From Geothrix paludis (lineage in GTDB: Bacteria > Acidobacteriota > Holophagae > Holophagales > Holophagaceae), in contig NZ_JAKZLC010000001.1 of assembly GCF_022808815.1 (NCBI RefSeq), forward strand, positions 372,001 to 436,000: DNA of 64,000 bases. Direction: 5' to 3'. The translations under genes and the position numbers were made by a program. Below the pieces are notes generated by a model. That model searched no databases, was not told the origin of the DNA, and saw nothing but the letters and a program-made list of their open reading frames with translations. Of this stretch, positions 16,287-28,341 are shown piece by piece (within the stretch, counting starts at the first letter, position 1; the number at the start of each line of letters is the position of its first letter).

Positions 16287-16982
16287 CTACTCCTCCGTCC
16301 GTAGCCGGTAGCCCACGCCGGGCTCGGTCTGCAGGTACCTGGGGCGGGAAGGATCCTCCTCCAGTTTGTGCCGGAGCTGGGCCATGTAGACCCGGAGGTA
16401 CAGGGGCTGGGCGCCCGCCACGCCACCCCAGACCTCCTTCAGGAGCTGGCGCTGGGTGACGACCTTTCCTGCGTGCCGGATCAGGGTGGTGAAGAGGCGG
16501 TATTCGAGCGGGGTGAGGTGGACCTCCTGGCCTCCGACGAGGACCTGGCGCCGGGCCAGGTCCACTCGCCACCGTCCCAGGGTGAACAGCGGGTCTTCGG
16601 CCGTCCCGGGGTCCGCGTGGCGCAGAGCTACACGGATACGGGCCAGGAGCTCCCCGGTGCCGAAGGGCTTGGTGAGGTAGTCGTCGGCGCCCACGTCCAA
16701 GGCACCGATCTTGTCGGTCTCCCGTCCCCTGGCGGAGATGACGATGACCGGGGTGCGGCTCCATTCCCGGAGCCGCGTCATGAGGTCGAGGCCGTCCATG
16801 TCGGGGAGGCCCAGGTCGAGCAGGATCACGTCCGGCCGATGCTGCACGGCCAGGGTCAGGCCCTCCTGGCCCGAGGCGGCCTCGAGGTAGCGGTAGCCGC
16901 CACCCTCCAGGGCCACCCGGAGGAATCGGCGCATCTGGGGCTCGTCCTCCACCAGGAGGATCTGGGGAGCGGGAACGCTCAT
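16287..16982 (-). CDS. kdpE: KdpE response regulator of the potassium operon
   Basis: This encodes 231 residues. The receiver domain has the acidic pair in LVEDEP, the phospho-acceptor Asp in ILLDLGLPD (residue 56), the switch Ser in VISARG and Lys in YLTKPF. The OmpR-type winged helix (about 130-231) ends with GVGYRL. It follows kdpD with an ATGA overlap at 16979-16982. KdpE activates kdp transcription at low K+ or high osmolarity. The two 11-bp-spaced elements at 24422-24438 and 24492-24509 are its most likely targets here. A longer frame upstream is a shadow of kdpD. Confidence 0.95.
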   Translation of the reverse strand: MSVPAPQILLVEDEPQMRRFLRVALEGGGYRYLEAASGQEGLTLAVQHRPDVILLDLGLPDMDGLDLMTRLREWSRTPVIVISARGRETDKIGALDVGADDYLTKPFGTGELLARIRVALRHADPGTAEDPLFTLGRWRVDLARRQVLVGGQEVHLTPLEYRLFTTLIRHAGKVVTQRQLLKEVWGGVAGAQPLYLRVYMAQLRHKLEEDPSRPRYLQTEPGVGYRLRTEE

Positions 16983-19663
16983 GCCGGCTCCTCGGGCACA
17001 GGTGGCGGCGTGCCCAGGGGGAGGCTCACGAGGAACTGGGCTCCGCCCTGGGGATGGTTGACCGCCTGGATGCGGCCCCCGTGGGCGGCCACGATGCCCT
17101 TGCAGATGGCCAAGCCAAGCCCCGCCCCAGGGTGGCCCACGGCGGCGCCGCCTCGGGCCAGCTTCTCGAAGATCCGCACCTCCTCCCCGGGAGCGATCCC
17201 GGGGCCCCGGTCCGTCACGGACAGGGTGAGGGACTTCCCAGCGGCCCAGGCCTTGATGTCCACCTGGGAACCCGGCGGCGAGTACTTCAGCGCGTTGTCG
17301 AGGAGGTTCACCAGCACCTGCTCCATGAGGACGGGATCCATGGCCACCAGCGGCAGATCTTCGGGCAGGTGGGCCTTCACCCGCGCGGATTCCGCACCCA
17401 GCTCGCGGCGGTCCAGGGCCGCGCCCACCACCTCCTCCACGGGGATCCATTCGGTGCGCAACTCCAGGGCGCCGGCCTCAAGGCGCGTGATATCCAGCAG
17501 ATTGCTGACGAGCCGGTGCAGCCGTTGGGCCTCCTCCTGGGCCGAGGTCAGGAGGTCGCGCCGGGTGGCGTCGGAGAGGTCGGGTGTCTCCAGGACCGTG
17601 CTCACGGCGCCAGTGATGACGCCCAGGGGGGTCCGCAAGTCATGCGATACCGAGCTGAGCAGCGCATTCCGCAGGCGCTCCTCCTCGGCCCGCTGGCGAT
17701 CCGCGGCGCTCTGCTCGGCCAGGAGGGTTCGCTCCAGGGCCAGGGCGGTCTGGGTGGCGAAGGCCTCCAGCAGCTGACGCTGGTCCGGTTCCACCCACCG
17801 GGGGGCGCCCTCCGGAAGCACACCCATCACACCCAGCGGGCCCTTGGACCCCTTGAGGGGCAGGTAGGTGGCACGGGCCCCGGGCAGGGTGACCGTGCCC
17901 AGTCCGGCAGGCTCGTCATGCTCGAGGACCCACTGGGCCACCCCCCGTTCCTGGTCGTTCAGCGGGAAGGCGAAGTGATGGGCCGGCGCCTCCAGGTGTC
18001 CGGAACCGTCTGGAAGCAGCACCACCGCATGACTCTGGAACTGGGCCGCGACGTTCTGGATCGCGGCGGCCACCAGCGCTGTGGACCCCGCGCTGCGGGC
18101 CAATCCCTGCCCCAGGCGGAAGAGGGCCTGTGTCCGTTGTTCCCGGCCGCGGGCCAGGCGGGCCTGGGCCCGGATCCGCTCGGTGAGATTGCCGATGACC
18201 ACCCCCACCAGAAGCATCACCGAGAAGGTGCCTACGTGGCGGAAGTCGGATACCACGAAGGTGAAATAGGGGGGCACGAAGATGAAATCGAAGGCCGCCA
18301 CGCTCAGGATCGAAGCCAGGAGCGAGGGGCCGCGGCCGAAGCGGGTGGCGACCACCAGGATCCCCAGCAGGTAGACCATCACGATGTCCGCTAGTTCCGT
18401 GCGTCGGAATACCAGGCCGGCGACGGCCGTCGCGAGGGCCACCGTGATGAGGCTGAGCAGGTAGTTCCGCGGGGGGCTCGTGATGCGGGGCCGGAGGGCC
18501 GACGGGTGCGCCTGTTTCGCCGTTTCGCCCGTGATGACGTAGATGTCGATGTTCCCGCTGTGGCGGATGAGGTCATCTACCGGCGAACCCGCGAAGGCGT
18601 CGAGCCATCTTGGGCGCGAAGGCTTGCCCACCACGATCTTGGTGATGTTTCGATCCTGGGCGAATGCGAGGATGTCCTCGTCCGTCCGGCCGCCGCCTTC
18701 GATGACGACCGTTTCCCCACCCAGCTTCTCGGCCAGCCGGAGATTCTCCTCGACGCGGGTCCGCTCTTCCTCGCTGAATTTGAAGTGCCGGGGGGATTCG
18801 ATGTAGAGGGCCACCCATGAGGCCGCCAGGGACCCCGCCATGCGGCGTGTGGCGCGGATGAGCCGCTCGGAGAGCCCGTCCGGACCGACACAGACCAGGA
18901 GCCGGTCACCGGCTGCCCAGGTCTTCCGGATACCCTCGGACTCCATGTACCGCCGCATCTGGGCATCGACGTTTTCCGCCGTGTGGCGCAGGGCCAGCTC
19001 GCGAAGGGCGAGAAGGTTGCCTTTGCGGAAGAAGTGTTCGCGGGCATGACTGGCCTGCTCCGGAAGGTAGACCTTGCCCTCCTTGAGCCGGACGAGCAGA
19101 TCCTCCGGGGCCAGGTCCACCAGCTCGACTTCGTCCGCTCGTTCCATGACGGTGTCCGGGACATTCTCTCGAACCGTGACGCCGGTGATCTGGGCGATGA
19201 CGTCCTTGAGGCTTTCCAGGTGCTGGACGTTCATCGTGGTGTAGACATCGATGCCGGCGTCCAGCAGCTCCATGACGTCCTGCCAGCGCTTGGCGTGCCG
19301 GGAGCCCATCACGTTGGTGTGGGCCAGCTCGTCCACGAGAATCAGCGCCGGCCGGCGGGCCAGGGCGGCTTCGAGGTCGAACTCAGGAAGGAACTGACCG
19401 GCGTAGGCCAGCTCCTTTCGGGGCAGGATCTCCAGCCCCTCTGTAAGGGCGGCCGTCTCACTCCGGCCGTGGGTCTCGACGACGCCGACGACGAGGTCGA
19501 CCCCCTCCACGCTCCGCTCCCGCGCCTCGGAAAGCATGGCGTAGGTCTTGCCAACGCCCGGTGCGGCGCCGAAGAAGACCTTGAGTTTCGCCCGACTCTC
19601 CCGGGCTTCTTCTGCCTGGACCTTGCGGAGCAGGGCATCAGGATCAGGGCGTTGGAAGGCCAT
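16979..19663 (-). CDS. kdpD: KdpD sensor histidine kinase
   Basis: This encodes 894 residues, full KdpD length. The N-terminal KdpD domain has Walker A GAAPGVGKT at 32-40 and LVDELAHTN. A universal-stress-like domain follows at about 240-370, then four short membrane helices at about 395-500 and a GAF-like region. HisKA has H-box SVSHDLRTPLG with His674. HATPase has DNALKYSPPGSQ and GPGIAPGEE. It senses K+ limitation or turgor and phosphorylates KdpE. It starts 9 bases after kdpC and overlaps kdpE by 4, so the sensor genes belong to the transporter operon. Nothing appears truncated. Confidence 0.96.
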   Translation of the reverse strand: MAFQRPDPDALLRKVQAEEARESRAKLKVFFGAAPGVGKTYAMLSEARERSVEGVDLVVGVVETHGRSETAALTEGLEILPRKELAYAGQFLPEFDLEAALARRPALILVDELAHTNVMGSRHAKRWQDVMELLDAGIDVYTTMNVQHLESLKDVIAQITGVTVRENVPDTVMERADEVELVDLAPEDLLVRLKEGKVYLPEQASHAREHFFRKGNLLALRELALRHTAENVDAQMRRYMESEGIRKTWAAGDRLLVCVGPDGLSERLIRATRRMAGSLAASWVALYIESPRHFKFSEEERTRVEENLRLAEKLGGETVVIEGGGRTDEDILAFAQDRNITKIVVGKPSRPRWLDAFAGSPVDDLIRHSGNIDIYVITGETAKQAHPSALRPRITSPPRNYLLSLITVALATAVAGLVFRRTELADIVMVYLLGILVVATRFGRGPSLLASILSVAAFDFIFVPPYFTFVVSDFRHVGTFSVMLLVGVVIGNLTERIRAQARLARGREQRTQALFRLGQGLARSAGSTALVAAAIQNVAAQFQSHAVVLLPDGSGHLEAPAHHFAFPLNDQERGVAQWVLEHDEPAGLGTVTLPGARATYLPLKGSKGPLGVMGVLPEGAPRWVEPDQRQLLEAFATQTALALERTLLAEQSAADRQRAEEERLRNALLSSVSHDLRTPLGVITGAVSTVLETPDLSDATRRDLLTSAQEEAQRLHRLVSNLLDITRLEAGALELRTEWIPVEEVVGAALDRRELGAESARVKAHLPEDLPLVAMDPVLMEQVLVNLLDNALKYSPPGSQVDIKAWAAGKSLTLSVTDRGPGIAPGEEVRIFEKLARGGAAVGHPGAGLGLAICKGIVAAHGGRIQAVNHPQGGAQFLVSLPLGTPPPVPEEPA

Positions 19664-19672
19664 GCCCTTACG

Positions 19673-20284
19673 CTATCTGGATTTGTGGCTCTTTGCCCCA
19701 AACGGGTCGTCGAGGGCCAAGTTGAGTTTCAGGACGTTCACCCGGGGTTCGCCGAGGATGCCCCATTGCGGGCCTTCGACATGGGTGGTCACGAGGTCGC
19801 GCACAGTGGTCTCGTCCAGCCCTCTCGCCAAGGCCACCCGGTGAGCCTGGAAGAGCGCGGAAGCCGGGCTGATGTGTGGATCCAGGCCACTGCCCGACGC
19901 GGTAACGAGGTCGACAGGAACCGGGCCGGTGGCCTCCGGGTCCGCGGTCCGGAGGGCGGCGACCCGGTCCTGGACCGCTCTGCGGAGATCCGGACTGCTG
20001 GGAGCCAGGTTGGAACCGCCACTGTTGGCGCCGTTGTAGGGCAGGGGCTTGCCTTGGGCGTCGACGGTGGCGGAGGGACGACCCCAGAAGTCGCGGGGCG
20101 CCGTGAAGGACTGCCCGATCCACTCGGAACCGATGATCTGGCCGTCTCTGCGGATCAGGCTGCCTTCGGCCTGATGGGGGAAGACCGCCTGGGCCAGCCC
20201 GGTGACCCCGAGGGGGTAGGCCAGACCCGTGAGGGCGGACAGCGCGATGAAGAGGACGAGGGCGGGGCGGAATTGCGAGTCCAT
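19673..20284 (-). CDS. kdpC: KdpC subunit of the K+-transporting P-type ATPase
   Basis: This encodes 203 residues. One N-terminal membrane helix (about 8-28) contains [15 protein letters not shown]. The periplasmic domain carries [30 protein letters not shown] and the strongly conserved [15 protein letters not shown]. KdpC assists the KdpFABC complex and raises nucleotide affinity of KdpB. It lies 10 bases after kdpB and 9 before kdpD. Length and motifs are normal. Confidence 0.96.
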
Positions 20285-20294
20285 GAGAACTCCT

Positions 20295-22373
20295 CTAGGC
20301 GACGAGGTGGAGCGCGGCGAGCAGCCAGTCGATGGCCTTGATACCGATGAAAGGCACCACCAGGCCGCCGGCCCCGTAGAGCAGCAGGTTCCGCTGCAGC
20401 AGTTGCGCCGCCCCCACCGGCCGGTACGCGACGCCCCGCAGGGCCAGGGGGATGAGGGCGACGATGATGAGGGCGTTGAAGATCACGGCCGAGAGGATGG
20501 CGCTCTCGGGGCTGTGGAGCCGCATGACGTTGAGTGCGCCCAGGGCCGGGTAGGTGGCCACGAAGGCCGCGGGCAGGATGGCGAAGTACTTGGCCACGTC
20601 GTTGGCGATGCTGAAGGTGGTCAACGAACCGCGGGTCATGAGCATCTGCTTGCCGATCTCCACGATCTCGATGAGCTTGGTGGGATTGGAGTCCAGATCC
20701 ACCATGTTCCCCGCCTCCTTCGCGGCCTGGGTGCCGCTGTTCATGGCCACGGCGACATCGGCCTGGGCCAGGGCCGGCGCGTCGTTGGTTCCGTCTCCTG
20801 TCATGGCCACCAGACGCCCGCCGGCCTGGTACTCACGGATGAGCTTGAGCTTGGCTTCCGGCGTGGCCTGGGCCAGGAAGTCGTCCACGCCGGCCTCGGC
20901 GGCGATGGCGGCGGCGGTGAGGGGGTTGTCGCCGGTGATCATCACGGTCTTGATGCCCATGCCCCGCAGCTCCGCGAAGCGCTCCTTGATGCCGCCCTTC
21001 ACGATGTCCTTGAGCTGGATGACACCGAGGGCACGTGATCCTTCGGCCACCACGAGCGGGGTGCCGCCCGTCATGGAGATCTGGTCCACGGTCCGGCGCA
21101 AGTCCTCCGGAAACGACCCGCCATGAGACTGGACGTAGGCCTCGATGGCCGAGGCGGCACCCTTGCGGATTTGGCGGGCGCCGAGGTTCACGCCACTCAT
21201 GCGGGTTTGTGCGGTGAAGGGCACGAAGTGGGCGTCCAGGGCGTGGAGGTCCCGCTCGCGGAGGCCGTGCTGTTCCTTGGCCAGCACCACGATGCTGCGT
21301 CCCTCGGGTGTTTCATCTGCCAGGGAGGAGAGCTGGGCCGCATCCGCCAGATGCTTCAAGTCCAGACCATCGGCGGGCAGGAAGGCCACGGCCTGCCGGT
21401 TGCCCAGGGTGATGGTGCCGGTCTTGTCCAGCAGCAGCACGTCCACGTCGCCCGCTGCCTCCACGGCCCGGCCGGATGTGGCAATGACATTGGCCTGGAT
21501 CATGCGATCCATACCCGCGATGCCGATGGCGCTGAGCAGGCCGCCGATGGTGGTGGGAATGAGGCAGACGAGCAGTGAGACCAGCACGGTCAGCGTCACG
21601 GGATGCCCCTGTCCGGCGGCCTTGGTGGAGAAGACGGAGTAAGGCAACAGGGTGGCCGTAGCCAACAGGAAGACGATGGTGAGCCCGGCCAGGAGGATGT
21701 CGAGGGCGATTTCGTTAGGCGTCTTCTGGCGCTTGGCGCCCTCCACCATGGCGATCATGCGGTCCAGGAAACTCTCACCGGGATTGGACGAGATGCGGAT
21801 CAACAGCCAGTCGGAAAGCACCAAGGTTCCCCCGGTGACGGCGGAGCGGTCGCCGCCGCTCTCCCGGATGACCGGGGCGCTCTCGCCGGTGATGGCGCTT
21901 TCGTTCACCGAGGCCACGCCCTCGACCACCTCTCCGTCACCGGGGATGGTCTCGCCGGCTTCCACCAGCACGAGGTCATTGACGCGCAGGACCGGTGCAT
22001 CGACCACCTCGTGCGGCCCCATCCTGTCGGCCCCGAGCAGCCGTCTGGCCTTCACGCCGCGCCTGGACCGGCGCAGGGAATCCGCCTGGGCCTTGCCCCG
22101 GCCCTCTGCCATGGCTTCGGCGAAATTCGCGAAGAGGAGGGTGAACCAGAGCCAGAGAGAGATGGCCAGGATGAAGCCGGGGCGTCCCTCCCCGCGGCCC
22201 GTCAGGGCCTGGATCCAGAGGCCCGTGGTGAAGGCACTGCAGATCCAGACGGTGAACATCACGGGATTCCGGATCTGGTGAAGGGGGTTCAGCTTCCGGA
22301 CGGAGTCCAGCACGGCGCGTCGCACGATGGCGGATTCGAAGAGAGGCCTGTCCTGCCGCGAGTGGGAGGTCAT
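20295..22373 (-). CDS. kdpB: KdpB, catalytic subunit of the K+-transporting P-type ATPase
   Basis: This encodes 692 residues from the ATG at 22373, which overlaps the kdpA stop (ATGA at 22370-22373); the frame that extends further upstream is a shadow. The actuator motif TGES is in [10 protein letters not shown]. The phosphorylated Asp is residue 316 in DKTGT. The nucleotide domain has KGAAS, and the hinge motif [17 protein letters not shown] is complete. KdpB hydrolyses ATP to power K+ uptake by KdpA. All catalytic residues are present. The Ser in TGES that is phosphorylated for inhibition in E. coli is conserved, so similar inhibition at high K+ is possible. Confidence 0.97.
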
Positions 22374-24076
22374 CGGATGCTCCTCAGGGTCAGGTGCTCG
22401 GCGACGGGGCCGAGGGCCAAGGCGGGGATGAACGTGAGTGCGCCCACCAGGAGCACGACTCCGACGAGCACGCCGACAAAAAGGGGCGTATGCGTGGGCA
22501 AGGTGCCCAGACCCTCGGGCGTGTGCTTCTTCTTCACCAGGGAGCCGGCGAGGGCCAGCACGGGCCAGATCACGCCGAAGCGACCCAGGAGCATGGCGAC
22601 GGCTAGACCGTCGTTGTAGAAGGGCGTGTTGGCGTTGAGTCCGGCGAAGGCACTGCCGTTGTTGTTGGAGGCGCTGCTCCAGGCGTAGAGGATCTGGCTG
22701 AAGCCGTGGGGTCCGGGATTGCTCACGGAGGCCACGGCCGCCGGAACGAGCACGGAGATGGCCGTCCCGATCAGCACAGCGGCGCAAGGCAGGAGGATGG
22801 CGATGGAGGCCATCTTCATCTCGAAGGCCTCCACCTTCTTGCCTAGGTATTCGGGGGTGCGGCCCACCATGAGGCCGCCAATGAAGACGGCGACCAGGGC
22901 GAACATGAGCATGCCGTAGAGCCCCGATCCGACGCCGCCGAAGACCACTTCGCCCAGTTGCATGAGCCATAGGGGGACCAGGCCGCCCAGGGGCGTGAAG
23001 GAGTCGTGCATGGCGTTCACGGAGCCATTGGAGGCAGCCGTGGTGGCTGTGGCCCAGAGGGCAGAGCCGCCGGGGCCGAACCGCAGCTCCTTGCCCTCCA
23101 TGTTCCCGCCCGGCTGATCGAGGCTGGCCACCTGGGTCACCCCCAGGCCGTCCAGGGCGGGGTTGCCCTTCACCTCGGCCTGCGTGCAGACGGCCAGGGC
23201 CCCGACGAACATCACGGTCATGGCCGCCAGCAACGCCCAACCCTGGCGGCGGTCCTTCACCATGTGCCCGAAGGTCACGCAGAGGGCCGCGGGGATGAGG
23301 AGGATGCTCAGCATCTGGGCGAAATTCGAGAGGGGCGAGCTGTTCTCGAAGGGATGGGCGGCGTTGGCGCCGAAGAACCCGCCGCCGTTGGTGCCGAGCA
23401 TCTTGATCGCGACCTGGGATGCCGCGGGGCCCATGGCGAGCACCTGTCCGCCGGCGGTGTGGAGGTAGGCGGACAGGTTCTGGATGACGCCCTGGGAGAC
23501 CAGGAAAAGGGCGAGGGCGAAGGACAGGGGTAGGAGGATATAGAGGGTGCTGCGCACCAGGTCTACCCAGGCATTCCCGAGGCCCGCGGCGCTGCGGCGC
23601 GTGATGCCCCTGACGAGCGCGGCCAGCACCGCGATGCCGGTCGCGGCGGAGATGAAGTTCTGCACCGTGAGGCCCAGCATCTGGGTGAGGTAGCTCAGCG
23701 TGGTTTCACCGCTGTAGGCCTGCCAGTTGGTGTTGGTGATGAAACTGACGGCCGTGTTGAAGGAGAGGCCGGAGGCGACGTTGGCCTGGCGCTCGGGGTT
23801 CAGGGGCAGGGCCGCTTGGGTCTTCATCAGGAGGAACACCGCCGCCAGGCCGAGGAGCTTGATGAGGGTGATGGACCAGGCGTAGGCCTTCCAGCCCATC
23901 TCATCGTCCTCGTGGATGCCCATGAGGCGATAGAGGCCTCGTTCGAGGGGGCGCAGGATCGGGTGGAGGAGGGTGCGCCCGCCCTCAAGGACCTTGGCCA
24001 TGTGGGTTCCCAGGGGGTAGGCCAGGCTCAGGAGCAGGGCCAGGTACAGCAGGTTCTGGGACCAGGCATGGGTCAT
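22370..24076 (-). CDS. kdpA: KdpA, K+-translocating subunit
   Basis: This encodes 568 residues with about ten membrane helices and the four pore-loop repeats of the SKT channel superfamily. Recognisable pore stretches are [52 protein letters not shown] and [14 protein letters not shown]. It binds and passes K+ toward the KdpB tunnel. The start overlaps the stop of kdpF (ATGA) and the stop overlaps the start of kdpB (ATGA), giving tight stoichiometric coupling. Length is normal for the family. Confidence 0.97.
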
Positions 24077-24165
24077 TGGAACGTCTCCGGCTTCAGCAGA
24101 GCGAAGGTGAGGTAGCCCAGAAGGCCCAGGGCCAGGAGAGAGGCCAGAAGGAGGGTGAGGTTCAT
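24073..24165 (-). CDS. kdpF: KdpF, 30-residue stabilising subunit
   Basis: This is a very short gene of 30 codons: [11 protein letters not shown], then [19 protein letters not shown]. It is a single membrane helix with the KdpF hallmark GYL-x-x-AL followed by a short polar end (KPETF), and it lies directly before kdpA. It overlaps kdpA by ATGA and the upstream 64-codon frame by ATGA. KdpF acts like a lipid-like stabiliser in the KdpFABC complex. Position and motif together make the call strong despite the size. Confidence 0.92.
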
Positions 24166-24356
24166 CGGAGCATTCCTTCCCGGGGTTGGATCTGGGCGAT
24201 CAACCAGAAGAAGAAGGGAAGAAGCATCAGGATCAGCATCCACCAGCCGCTGGTGCGTCCGCCCTCACCCTCGTTCCAGAGCGCGCGCGCGGCCCGGAGG
24301 CCCAGCCAGGCTGCCAACGCGGCGAATGGGAAGAACCATGGCATCACAAGGTGCAC
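24162..24356 (-). CDS. Unnamed 64-residue membrane protein heading the kdp operon
   Basis: This encodes 64 residues starting with GTG at 24356, chosen because AGGAG lies 5 bases upstream. An internal ATG at 24344 is the alternative. It has two hydrophobic segments (about 6-24 and 38-56) separated by a charged loop ([13 protein letters not shown]), and ends QPREGMLR. Its stop overlaps the kdpF start (ATGA), so it is coupled to the whole kdp chain. It is not one of the classical Kdp subunits. It might be an accessory subunit or a regulatory leader peptide. I do not recognise the family. Confidence 0.72.
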
Positions 24357-24421
24357 AGAGACTCCTGCGGGCGACCTGGTCCGTGAGGGGGCACCCGATC
24401 CGACAGCATGGTTCGAGCCCC

Positions 24422-24438
24422 GTTAAGACGCTGTTAGG
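24422..24438 (-). promoter_or_regulatory. Candidate KdpE-type operator facing kdp
   Basis: On the minus strand this reads CTAAC (24437-24433), six bases, then TTAAC (24426-24422), an 11-bp pitch typical of tandem sites bound by OmpR-family regulators. It lies 65 bases before the GTG of the first kdp-operon frame and matches the element facing kimA at 14 of 18 positions. Confidence 0.55.
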
Positions 24439-24491
24439 AGTTGAGGCGGACCGATCGAGGTGTCGTCGGGGCAGGCGTTCTAGGCTGGATT

Positions 24492-24509
24492 CCTAACGCA
24501 TTCTTAACG
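24492..24509 (+). promoter_or_regulatory. Candidate KdpE-type operator facing kimA
   Basis: Plus strand CTAAC (24493-24497), six bases, TTAAC (24504-24508) is the same arrangement and orientation relative to its gene as the kdp-side element. The extended form is CCTAAC-GCATTC-TTAACG. It lies about 100 bases before the kimA ATG. Confidence 0.55.
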
Positions 24510-24612
24510 CCGTTCCTGGCCATTCTTGTCGGTTGGCCCGGCCCCGGAGCAGGTGGACCGGGCCGGTCCCATCGTCATCCCGTCTGGACCCGCCATCCCA
24601 GGAACCCCGGTC

Positions 24613-26505
24613 ATGCCCAATTACAGAACCCTTCTCCTGGGCCGGCGTCTGGCCAGCGAGGAAAGCCACGAGACCCGGATCAGCAATCCCATCGCCCTGG
24701 CGGTGTTCAGTTCGGACGCGCTGTCGTCCGTGGCCTACGGCACCCAGGAGATCATGGCGCCGCTCACGGCGGCCATCGCGGTGTTCGGGGCAGGGGTGCT
24801 CGGGTGGTCTTGGTGGGTGGCTCTCGGCATCGTGGGCCTGCTGCTGATCCTCAACGTGAGCTACCGCCAGACCATCCACGCCTATCCCAGCGGCGGCGGC
24901 GCCTACCTGGTGGCTAAGGACAACCTCGGCGAGGCCGCGGCCCAGACGGCGGGCGCTTCGCTGCTGATCGACTACATCCTCACCGTGGCCGTATCGGTAT
25001 CCGCGGGCGTCTCGGCCATCGTTTCCGCCTTCCCCGGGCTGGAGGCCCACCGGGTGCTGCTGGCCGAGGGAATTATCGCCTTCATCGCCCTGATGAACCT
25101 TCGCGGGGTGAAGGAGAGCGGCCTGGTCTTCTCCCTGCCGACCTATGGCTTCGTGGTCTGCATCGTGGGCCTGCTGCTCAAGGGCTTCTGGAACGTGGCC
25201 ACGGGGCATGGGGCGGCCGCCGCTCACGTGGCCGCGGCCCATCTCGAAGGGACCTCCCGGCTGGCCGCCGTCTGGCTTCTGGCCCGAGCCTACAGCGCCG
25301 GCTGCACTGCGCTGACGGGCGTGGAGGCCATCAGCAATGGCGTCACGGCCTTCAAAGACCCGGTGTCGCGCAATGCGTCGAAGACCATGACCTGGATGGT
25401 GGTGATCCTGGGGGGCATGTTCCTGGGCATCACCTACCTGACGAACCACTACGGGCTGACCTACCATCCGGACTCGCCCGAGACCCTTCTGTCCCAGCTC
25501 ACCCGGATCATCCTGGGCGGCGCGGAACACGGGTTTCCGAAGCTCGTCTACCTCACCACCACAGGCTTCACCATGGCCATCCTGGCCCTGGCGGCGAACA
25601 CGGCCTATGCGGACTTCCCCCGCCTGGCCGCGCTCCATGCCCGGGACGGCTTCCTGCCCCGCCAGTTCACCAGCCAGGGGGATCGCCTGGTCTTCTCCAA
25701 CGGGATCTTCATCCTGTCCCTGGCGGCTGGGTTCCTGGTCCTGCTCTTCGGTGCAAAGGAAGACCACCTGCTACCGCTCTACGCGGTGGGCGTCTTCCTG
25801 GGCTTCACCATCAGCCAGACGGGCATGGTGCGCCGGTGGTTCCGGCTGAGGGGCCCCCACTGGCGGCTCAAGGCGCTGGTCAATGGCCTGGGCGCGGTGA
25901 CCACCCTGATCGTGATGCTGGTTATCGCCGTGACGCGGTTCACCCACGGGGCGTGGATCGTGATCGTGCTCGTGCCGGTGATGGTCACCACGTTCTTCAA
26001 CATCCACCGGCACTACATCCGGGTGAAGTCCATCCTCGCGGCCAGCCGTGTGGACTTCATCGGGCCCCGCCGGAACCGCGTGGTGGTCCTGGTGTCGGGG
26101 ATCCATGCCGGCGTGGTGCAGGCCCTGAACTACGCGAAGGTCATCGCCGGACATGGCGAGGTGGAGGCCCTGACCATCGACTTTCCCGACGAGCACGGCC
26201 GGGACAGCGCGGCCCTGGAGAAGCTGCGCTCCGACTGGCCGCGGTATTGCGAGGGGATTCCGCTCCGGTCCATCCGCAGCCCCTACCGGAAGATCGTCGA
26301 ACCCATCGTGAACGAGCTGGATCGCATGCGGCAGGCGGAACCGGAGTACACAATCACCGTCATCCTCCCCGAGTTCGTGACCGGCCACTGGTGGGCGAAC
26401 CTGCTCCATAACCAGACGGCCTGGCGCATCAAGGGCACATTGCTGTCGAAGCCCAAGACCATCGTCATCTCCATTCCCTATCACCTGGAACCGCTGATGG
26501 AGTGA
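24613..26505 (+). CDS. kimA: KimA-like high-affinity K+/H+ symporter (APC superfamily)
   Basis: About 630 residues from the ATG at 24613; a TTG-initiated extension upstream is not family-like. Twelve membrane segments are followed by a cytoplasmic C-terminal domain of about 165 residues. Patterns that match B. subtilis KimA (YdaO) include AVFSSDALSSVAYGTQEIM, YRQTIHAYPSGGGAYLVAK, LLIDYILTVAVSVSAG, CTALTGVEAISNG, LAANTAYADFP and the ending PYHLEP. KimA imports K+ with protons and is inhibited by c-di-AMP in Gram-positives. A generic amino-acid permease is the alternative, but divergence from kdp supports potassium. It is convergent with the ClC gene, with no gap. Confidence 0.85.
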   Translation: MPNYRTLLLGRRLASEESHETRISNPIALAVFSSDALSSVAYGTQEIMAPLTAAIAVFGAGVLGWSWWVALGIVGLLLILNVSYRQTIHAYPSGGGAYLVAKDNLGEAAAQTAGASLLIDYILTVAVSVSAGVSAIVSAFPGLEAHRVLLAEGIIAFIALMNLRGVKESGLVFSLPTYGFVVCIVGLLLKGFWNVATGHGAAAAHVAAAHLEGTSRLAAVWLLARAYSAGCTALTGVEAISNGVTAFKDPVSRNASKTMTWMVVILGGMFLGITYLTNHYGLTYHPDSPETLLSQLTRIILGGAEHGFPKLVYLTTTGFTMAILALAANTAYADFPRLAALHARDGFLPRQFTSQGDRLVFSNGIFILSLAAGFLVLLFGAKEDHLLPLYAVGVFLGFTISQTGMVRRWFRLRGPHWRLKALVNGLGAVTTLIVMLVIAVTRFTHGAWIVIVLVPVMVTTFFNIHRHYIRVKSILAASRVDFIGPRRNRVVVLVSGIHAGVVQALNYAKVIAGHGEVEALTIDFPDEHGRDSAALEKLRSDWPRYCEGIPLRSIRSPYRKIVEPIVNELDRMRQAEPEYTITVILPEFVTGHWWANLLHNQTAWRIKGTLLSKPKTIVISIPYHLEPLME

Positions 26506-28341
26506 TTATCCAACCCGGAAGGTGCGCTTCGGAACCTCCGAGGAGGTCAGCCTGGCCGTATGCGCCTCCAGCAGGTCGCTCCGCGTGAGGATGCCGATCA
26601 GCCTGGAGTCCGCGTCCAGGACAGGAAGGCGTCCCACGGCCTCGCGGACCATGTGATCGGCCGCCTGGCGGAGCGAGTTGCCCCCGAAGGCCACGGCCAG
26701 ATCCCGGTGGATCAGGTTCCGGATGGACGCCTCCGGGGGATGGGAGGCCTCCAGCAGGTCCCGCCGCGTGAGCACGCCAATCACGGATCCATCACCTTCG
26801 ACGACGGGGAACCCGTGATGGGAGGCGCCATTCGCTCCAGCTTCGATCCAGCGCCGCGCCGAACTGAGCGACTGGTCCGCCTCCAGGGTCACCACGGGGC
26901 TCGAGGCCGCATCCTGGACCAGGACCTGATCCAGGAAATCCGCGGAGTACTCCTCCGGGACCCGGATGCCGCGCCGGGCGAGCTTCTCCGTCATGATGCT
27001 GTTCCGCATCATCAGGGCCGAGATCAGGTAGGCGGCGGAGCATCCGCCCAGCAGAGGCAGCAGGCCCAGCGGCTGCAGGGTCGTCTCGAAAGCGAACACG
27101 GCGGAGGCCAGCATGGCCCGGGAGGCGCCCGCGAAGATGGCGGCCATGCCGACCAGCGCGCAAATCCGGGGGTCCACGCCCGCCCCCGGGAAGGCGGCGG
27201 CGACCAAGCCGCCCAGGAGGGCGCCCAGCGCGCCGCCCAGGGTGAAGAGGGGGGCCAGCGTTCCGCCGGACGTGCCGCTGCCCAGGGCGATGGACCAGGA
27301 GAGGAACTTGGCCAGGCACAGGACCAGGAGGCCGGTCCCAATGAGGTTCGCCGAGAGGATGGCCTGGATGTTGTCGTAGCCCACGCCCATGGTGTGGGGG
27401 ACGAAGTAGCCGATGACGCCGACGGCGAGTCCGCCCAGGGCGGGCCACCACATCCAGTGGATGGGCAGATGCTCGAAGCCGTCCTCGATCCAGTAGATGG
27501 CCCGGGTCACGTAGACCGAGGCCAGGCCGACCAGGGCGCCGAGGGCGATGTAGACGGCCAAGGCGGAGCCGCCGGGGGTGGCGAGCGTGGGCATGGGGAA
27601 GACCGGCCGGATGCCGACGAGCGAGAAACGGACGCCGGTGGCGGCCGCGCTGGCCAGGGCCACGGGGATGATGGAGCGCGGGCGCATCTCGAAGAGCAGC
27701 AGCTCCACCGCGAGGAGCACCGCGGAAACCGGAGACCCGAAGGTGGCCGCCATGCCGGCCGCCGCGCCCGCCGCCAGCAGTGTCTTGCGCTCCAGGGCCG
27801 TGGTCGAGAGGACCTGCCCGAGGAGGGAACCGAGGGCGCCACCGGTGGCGATGATGGGGCCCTCCGCACCGAAGGGGCCGCCGGTGCCGATGGCGATGGC
27901 GGCGGAGAGGGGCTTGAGGAAGGTGATGCGGGCCGGGATGCGGCTCTCGTTGAGCAGGACCTGTTCCATCGCCTCGGGGATGCCATGCCCGCGGATGGCG
28001 CGGGATCCGTACCGGGCCATCAGGCCGACAAGGATCCCTCCCGCGACCGGGATGAAGATGGCCGGCCAGCCGAGGTGGTGCCCGGCCGGCGAGGCGAACT
28101 CAGTGGAGAATCGATGGTGGTAGGCGAGGTTGGTGACGAGCCCGATGAGCCGGACGAGCAGTTCGGCGAGGTACCCTGCGGCCACGCCCAGCGCGAGGGC
28201 GAGCAGGCTGATGAGGGCGACCCGGCCATCGACGATGGCGCGCTCGATGGGAATCCGGGCGTTCTCCAGGGCCGGTGCGAGGCTCGGGGCCACAGGGAGG
28301 CCCTCTCCGGACTGCTGGAACGGTGACCTTGCGCCCGTCAT
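26506..28341 (-). CDS. ClC-family chloride channel/antiporter with C-terminal CBS pair
   Basis: This encodes 611 residues. The ClC core (about 35-450) includes GHGIPEA (the GSGIP-like motif), GPFGAEGPI with the gating Glu retained, and GSGTSGGTLAPLF (the GxFxP-like region, altered). Two CBS domains follow (about 470-600), each ending in a VIGVLTRRDLLEA / LIGILTRSDLLEA pattern, which suggests nucleotide control. The gene overlaps the MarR stop by ATGA, so the regulator and channel form one operon. It may balance charge or pH during K+ uptake, an inference from the neighbouring K+ genes. Channel versus H+/Cl- exchange cannot be decided here. Confidence 0.9.
   Translation of the reverse strand: MTGARSPFQQSGEGLPVAPSLAPALENARIPIERAIVDGRVALISLLALALGVAAGYLAELLVRLIGLVTNLAYHHRFSTEFASPAGHHLGWPAIFIPVAGGILVGLMARYGSRAIRGHGIPEAMEQVLLNESRIPARITFLKPLSAAIAIGTGGPFGAEGPIIATGGALGSLLGQVLSTTALERKTLLAAGAAAGMAATFGSPVSAVLLAVELLLFEMRPRSIIPVALASAAATGVRFSLVGIRPVFPMPTLATPGGSALAVYIALGALVGLASVYVTRAIYWIEDGFEHLPIHWMWWPALGGLAVGVIGYFVPHTMGVGYDNIQAILSANLIGTGLLVLCLAKFLSWSIALGSGTSGGTLAPLFTLGGALGALLGGLVAAAFPGAGVDPRICALVGMAAIFAGASRAMLASAVFAFETTLQPLGLLPLLGGCSAAYLISALMMRNSIMTEKLARRGIRVPEEYSADFLDQVLVQDAASSPVVTLEADQSLSSARRWIEAGANGASHHGFPVVEGDGSVIGVLTRRDLLEASHPPEASIRNLIHRDLAVAFGGNSLRQAADHMVREAVGRLPVLDADSRLIGILTRSDLLEAHTARLTSSEVPKRTFRVG

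Follow-up and report, generated by a model that had tools for sequence, protein, structure and literature searches.

In Firmicutes, c-di-AMP controls the K+ importer KimA at two levels, through a riboswitch and at the protein itself (PMC6488665, PMC9945522), whereas the Kdp pump is known to be switched by the KdpDE two-component system. In the 3.41-Mb genome of the soil bacterium Geothrix paludis, a kimA gene and a kdp cluster face away from one spacer of 256 bp, which raises the question of what controls kimA in this organism, and whether the two unrelated K+ uptake systems share a regulator. The locus was analyzed in a window, i.e., the whole stretch of 64,000 nucleotides examined (G000:C1:372001-436000).

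Gene content of the locus and its two operators

The kimA gene (24613-26505, plus strand, start ATG at 24613) encodes a K+/H+ symporter of the APC superfamily with 630 amino acids (PF13520). Its product matched the solved B. subtilis KimA structure (6s3k, E=6.6e-132) over residues 5-625, with the C-terminal cytosolic domain included, and is, from this full-length homology, a predicted KimA K+ importer. Two more kimA paralogues, 73% and 63% identical to the KimA of the window, lie in tandem at G000:C4:405048-408884, where the operator described below is absent.

On the minus strand, the order leftward from the spacer is orf60, kdpF, kdpA, kdpB, kdpC, kdpD, and kdpE, and the six kdp genes thus form one cluster. 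The matches for kdpF (24073-24165, 30 aa; TIGR02115, E=1.5e-7) and kdpC (19673-20284; NF001454/TIGR00681, also PF02669) are over the cut-offs, and kdpA (22370-24076) matched TIGR00680 with E=5.6e-235. The kdpB gene (20295-22373) was called from its ORF and orthology only, the ORF containing the P-type ATPase motif DKTGT and sharing 82-96% identity with the orthologues in the kdp loci of relatives. The sensor kinase gene kdpD (16979-19663) matched PF02702 (E=1.3e-96) and NF007793 (E=8.6e-280, under its curated cut-off), and its product comprises Usp, DUF4118, GAF, HisKA, and HATPase domains. The kdpE gene (16287-16982) encodes a response regulator of the OmpR/PhoB family (PF00486; E. coli KdpE structure 4kny, E=6.8e-79). 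The NCBIfam and 6s3k matches confirmed the original prediction that the pump and the symporter are transcribed away from a common spacer, kimA on the plus strand and kdp on the minus strand. One correction concerns the kdp side, where the operon opens not with kdpF but with the small hydrophobic orf60 (24162-24344, minus strand, 60 aa), which kdpF follows. In most kdp loci of Geothrix, an ORF with 27-100% identity to orf60 occupies the same position, after the kdp promoter and ahead of kdpF. The orf60 product gave no match in Pfam and NCBIfam searches; it is a candidate for an extra Kdp subunit or a small regulator.

Two matched elements had been described in the spacer, and both were found where they had been placed, CTAACGCATTCTTAAC at 24493-24508 on the plus strand and CTAACAGCGTCTTAAC at 24437-24422 on the minus strand, each pointing outward to its own gene. 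The 18-mers containing them, TCCTAACGCATTCTTAAC and TCCTAACAGCGTCTTAAC, differ only at four spacer bases, which reproduces the claimed agreement at 14 of 18 positions. The kimA-side operator (24491-24508, plus strand) consists of the half-sites TCCTAAC and TCTTAAC, at an 11-bp pitch, around GCAT, and the kdp-side operator (24422-24439, minus strand) of the same half-sites around AGCG. The core common to both is TCCTAAC-N5-CTTAAC, and the two operators are only about 50 bp apart.

A search for KimA in 77 genomes of the family yielded 30 loci, from which the orthologues nearest to the kimA of the window were compared. In 22 kimA orthologues, TCCTAAC-N5-CTTAAC is invariant, lies 98-125 bp before the ATG, and points to it. 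The T, C, and C of this core are also invariant although they were not used as the alignment anchor, and the flanks have a mean of 0.58 bits per position. The kdp-side operator is conserved in the genus as well, so that the comparison of related kdp/kimA loci, which had been proposed as a check, was borne out for both elements.

Each operator is followed by a -10-like box, CATTCT of the presumed kimA promoter (24521-24526, plus strand), 12 bp after the operator, and CATGCT of the kdp promoter (24405-24410, minus strand), 11 bp after it. The box, CATNCT, is conserved in the 22 kimA orthologues and in the kdp upstream regions. Counted from this box, the operators span about -42 to -25, i.e., the -35 position. 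Because the CATNCT box is only 11-12 bp downstream of TTAAC on both sides, the operator appears to stand in for the -35 element; PhoB uses such a -35-position geometry at the E. coli pst promoter. A scan of the spacer for a consensus sigma-70 promoter gave none at the scan threshold, which would suit an activator-dependent promoter.

Confinement of the sites to kdp and kimA, and KdpE as the putative binder

The looser pattern YTAAC-N6-YTAAC has exactly two copies in the 3.41-Mb genome, both in the kdp/kimA spacer. No wider regulon emerged from a genome scan with two mismatches allowed, which gave 74 matches against 257 for the reversed-pattern control; besides the two exact sites, just two of the 74 had one mismatch. 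Across 47 Geothrix genomes, exact CTAAC-N6-TTAAC was found at 48 sites in 29 genomes, and 48 of 48 lie at kdp or kimA promoters, with an orphan site beside kdp in G007 counted as a kimA promoter. An extended form of the pattern, searched in 84,980 species genomes, was found in 25 stretches. The 21 from Holophagaceae are all at kdp or kimA, including one (L133) whose own DNA has no kdp gene and which was assigned to the kdp promoter of G. limicola through the coordinates of G009, on the inferred identity of G009 with G. limicola; for the remaining four, from outside Holophagaceae, no kdp or kimA was found in the DNA examined around them. The same cluster is carried by Geothrix and other Holophagaceae, among them G. 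limicola, G. fuzhouensis, G. terrae, G. oryzisoli, G. campi, and G. fermentans; with the first five of these among the site carriers, the regulation proposed here is directly testable.

The 11-bp pitch had been taken to fit KdpE, and the same pitch is indeed found in the site of E. coli KdpE, which binds two 6-bp direct repeats with 5 bp between them (TTTATA-N5-TTTACA) upstream of kdpF (PMC3264566). Geothrix KdpE can be aligned with E. coli KdpE over the full length and keeps the equivalents of the latter's DNA-contact residues R193, R200, and T215 (PMC3264566), when the numbering offset of the crystal construct is allowed for. In contrast to the E. coli promoter, the half-site is YTAAC and not the E. 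coli-type TTTAYA, the operator stops 11-12 bp short of the -10-like box and overlaps the -35 position, most kdp promoters carry two dimers 32 bp apart, and a second putative target, kimA, is added. Because the letters of the half-site differ, we propose that Geothrix KdpE acts at these sites, without calling them an E. coli-type box.

In five species (G016, G029, G039, G040, and G041), kimA faces kdpD, and the exact kimA site is the sole copy in the genome. Neither kdpA nor kdpC was detected in these five genomes, G040 being 98% complete with a 194-kb contig. In three of them (G039, G040, and G041), KdpD and KdpE are intact as judged by alignment, and kdpE is under purifying selection, with a pairwise dN/dS of about 0.06-0.07. 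In the recognition-helix region (LYLRVYM-QLRHKLE), the kdpFABC-less species show no difference beyond one variable position. Over the genus, the site is present in 29 of 36 genomes with KdpD and in 0 of 11 without detected KdpD (Fisher p=1.8e-6), a correlation that is confounded by shared ancestry, MAG incompleteness, and target-gene loss.

The binder could be another regulator of the OmpR/PhoB family, e.g., a PhoB-like one, with KdpE a mere neighbor of the sites. The genome holds eight OmpR-type DNA-binding domains, and 11-bp direct repeats are a shared feature of this family as a whole. However, sites confined to kdp and kimA are ill-suited to a regulator with a wider regulon of its own, and the site is retained together with KdpDE in the kdpFABC-less species and was found in no Geothrix genome that lacks KdpD. 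We consider this alternative unlikely.

Conservation, the restriction of the sites to kdp and kimA, and the co-occurrence with KdpDE instead support the joint control of kdp and kimA by KdpE that the original prediction had put forward. A two-promoter KdpE regulon, comprising kdpFABC and kimA, is very likely, given the sites, their uniqueness and outward orientation, their conservation, their movement with kimA, and their co-occurrence with KdpDE as observed here; binding by KdpE we infer, as we do, from the known biology of KdpDE, activation as the direction of control and K+ shortage as the signal. In such a regulon, KdpE, whose gene closes the kdp cluster, would in its phosphorylated form bind TCCTAAC-N5-CTTAAC as a head-to-tail dimer and occupy two sites, one towards kdpFABC(DE) and the other towards kimA. 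KdpE bound at the missing -35 position would recruit RNA polymerase to the CATNCT -10 box, and the sensing of K+ shortage by KdpD would lead to the joint induction of the ATP-driven pump and the proton-driven KimA.

Rearranged loci and the target of the kimA-side site

The arrangement of the genes varies among the species. kimA faces kdpF in the window and in eight other loci, with the site present. Elsewhere, it faces kdpD, with kdpFABC located past kimA or elsewhere nearby (e.g., G009, G018, G021, G030, and G033), and the site is kept. In G046, kimA and kdp are on different contigs, that of kimA being 260 kb long, and a perfect site still precedes kimA. Because the site moves with kimA to this unlinked locus, the element belongs to kimA and not to kdp alone, and we rejected the site as a kdp-only part.

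These arrangements bear on a further possibility: KdpE could occupy both sites, with the one on the kimA side working mainly on kdp, or being a repressor site or a leftover, and having no part in the control of kimA. In its favor, the two sites of the window are only about 50 bp apart, and the locus of G. fermentans (L153) has lost kimA yet keeps its site beside the kdp site. Nevertheless, the site accompanies kimA not only to the unlinked G046 locus but also to the kdpD-facing and kdpFABC-less loci, and its orientation, its distance of 98-125 bp to the kimA ATG, and its CATNCT box are all kept, which makes this possibility very improbable.

The locus of G. fermentans (L153:6722-7265) and that of G007 (L107) share the same organization: kimA is gone from this place, sdhB is now the neighbor, and what is left is an orphan promoter, a perfect kimA-type site plus CATNCT box, 8 bp from the kdp site. 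In G046, the kimA operator (L217:5139-5156, minus strand) overlaps the TAA stop of an upstream ORF of the same direction.

As for the history of KdpE control of kimA, Geothrix KdpDE is probably less a regulator of the Kdp pump than a K+-starvation switch of which KimA is the more persistent target, and it would have become a dedicated KdpDE-KimA system after the loss of kdpFABC, replacing control by c-di-AMP of the Firmicutes type. The species counted as having lost kdpFABC for this reading are G039, G040, G041, G029, G016, and G028. In G028 (L158/L148), a fragment of KdpA (residues 137-182) is fused to the KdpC end; it sits between the promoter and intact kdpDE and looks like a scar of a kdpFABC deletion.

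The coupling of kimA to the operator is not universal, because copies of KimA that are 86-89% identical, at other loci of G013, G014, G022, and G027, lack the site. Among Acidobacteriota outside the family, 19 with KimA were checked for linkage of kimA to kdpD, and none had KdpD near kimA; nor did G053 and G065 within the family. In three family members with small genomes of 0.9-1.2 Mb (G001, G002, and G003), the kimA match contains one in-frame TAA each.

c-di-AMP control and comparison with known systems

A third alternative is that kimA is under c-di-AMP control as in Firmicutes, by a riboswitch or directly on the protein. Both KimA and the Usp domain of KdpD are targets of c-di-AMP in Firmicutes (PMC9945522, PMC4686210), and the Usp domain is present in Geothrix KdpD. 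However, a genome search for the c-di-AMP riboswitch of the ydaO type (RF00379) gave no match, and neither did an Rfam search at 22000-27000, so that a c-di-AMP riboswitch or another known RNA at the locus was rejected. The DAC cyclase domain was not found in the genome either, whereas the same search was positive in 11 of 14 control genomes. The known control of KimA is therefore not detected here, and we give this alternative hardly any weight. That the repeats arose by chance or are ordinary promoter parts, TTAAC being like part of a -35 box, can practically be dismissed, since CTAAC-N6-TTAAC was observed twice in the window and in none of 100 dinucleotide shuffles, the copies are the only ones in the genome, and they are invariant across 22 species.

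B. subtilis kimA belongs to the same transporter family and is likewise linked to K+ homeostasis, but it is under a c-di-AMP riboswitch (PMC6488665, PMC10117811), whereas G. paludis, in which neither that riboswitch nor a c-di-AMP cyclase was detected, has an operator of the two-component type instead. In B. thuringiensis, a c-di-AMP riboswitch replaces KdpDE in the control of kdpFABC (PMC6488665). A regulator has thus been exchanged between high-affinity K+ importers there as well, in mirror image: the pump is under the riboswitch in B. thuringiensis, and the symporter would be under KdpDE in Geothrix. In Geobacter sulfurreducens, a secondary K+ symporter gene, GSU2485, also adjoins the kdp cluster (PMC2700814), but it encodes Kup and not KimA, lies 3' of kdpABCDE, and has a predicted riboswitch, not a KdpE site.

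According to the original prediction, such an arrangement is not known to be described for KimA, and in agreement with this we found no published link between KdpDE and KimA in the open-access literature. Control of KimA by c-di-AMP in Firmicutes is known, and so is control of the Kdp pump by KdpDE; the pairing of KdpDE with KimA, predicted here from sequence, appears to be new, and its occurrence in kdpFABC-less species is the most interesting part. Here, a symporter is apparently wired to KdpDE in an organism without a detectable c-di-AMP synthase, and the persistence of KdpDE with KimA after loss of the pump offers a natural case for K+ sensors changing their targets. The locus also bears on what KdpD senses without KdpFABC, and on why a cell would induce a pump and a symporter together.

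On the kdp side, most Geothrix promoters contain a tandem pair of dimers at a distance of 32 bp, in which the distal dimer often reads CCAAC-N5-CTTAAC; the window has the proximal dimer only. In G035 (L170), the kdp operon opens with a porin of the BBP2 type (PF07642, E=2.5e-44), and the operator lies before the porin. Similar porin-like ORFs, judged by sequence likeness, occur with degenerate tandem sites in G011, G019, and G020 (L165-L167). A related tandem pattern is found on the kdp side of G053, which belongs to another genus of the family.
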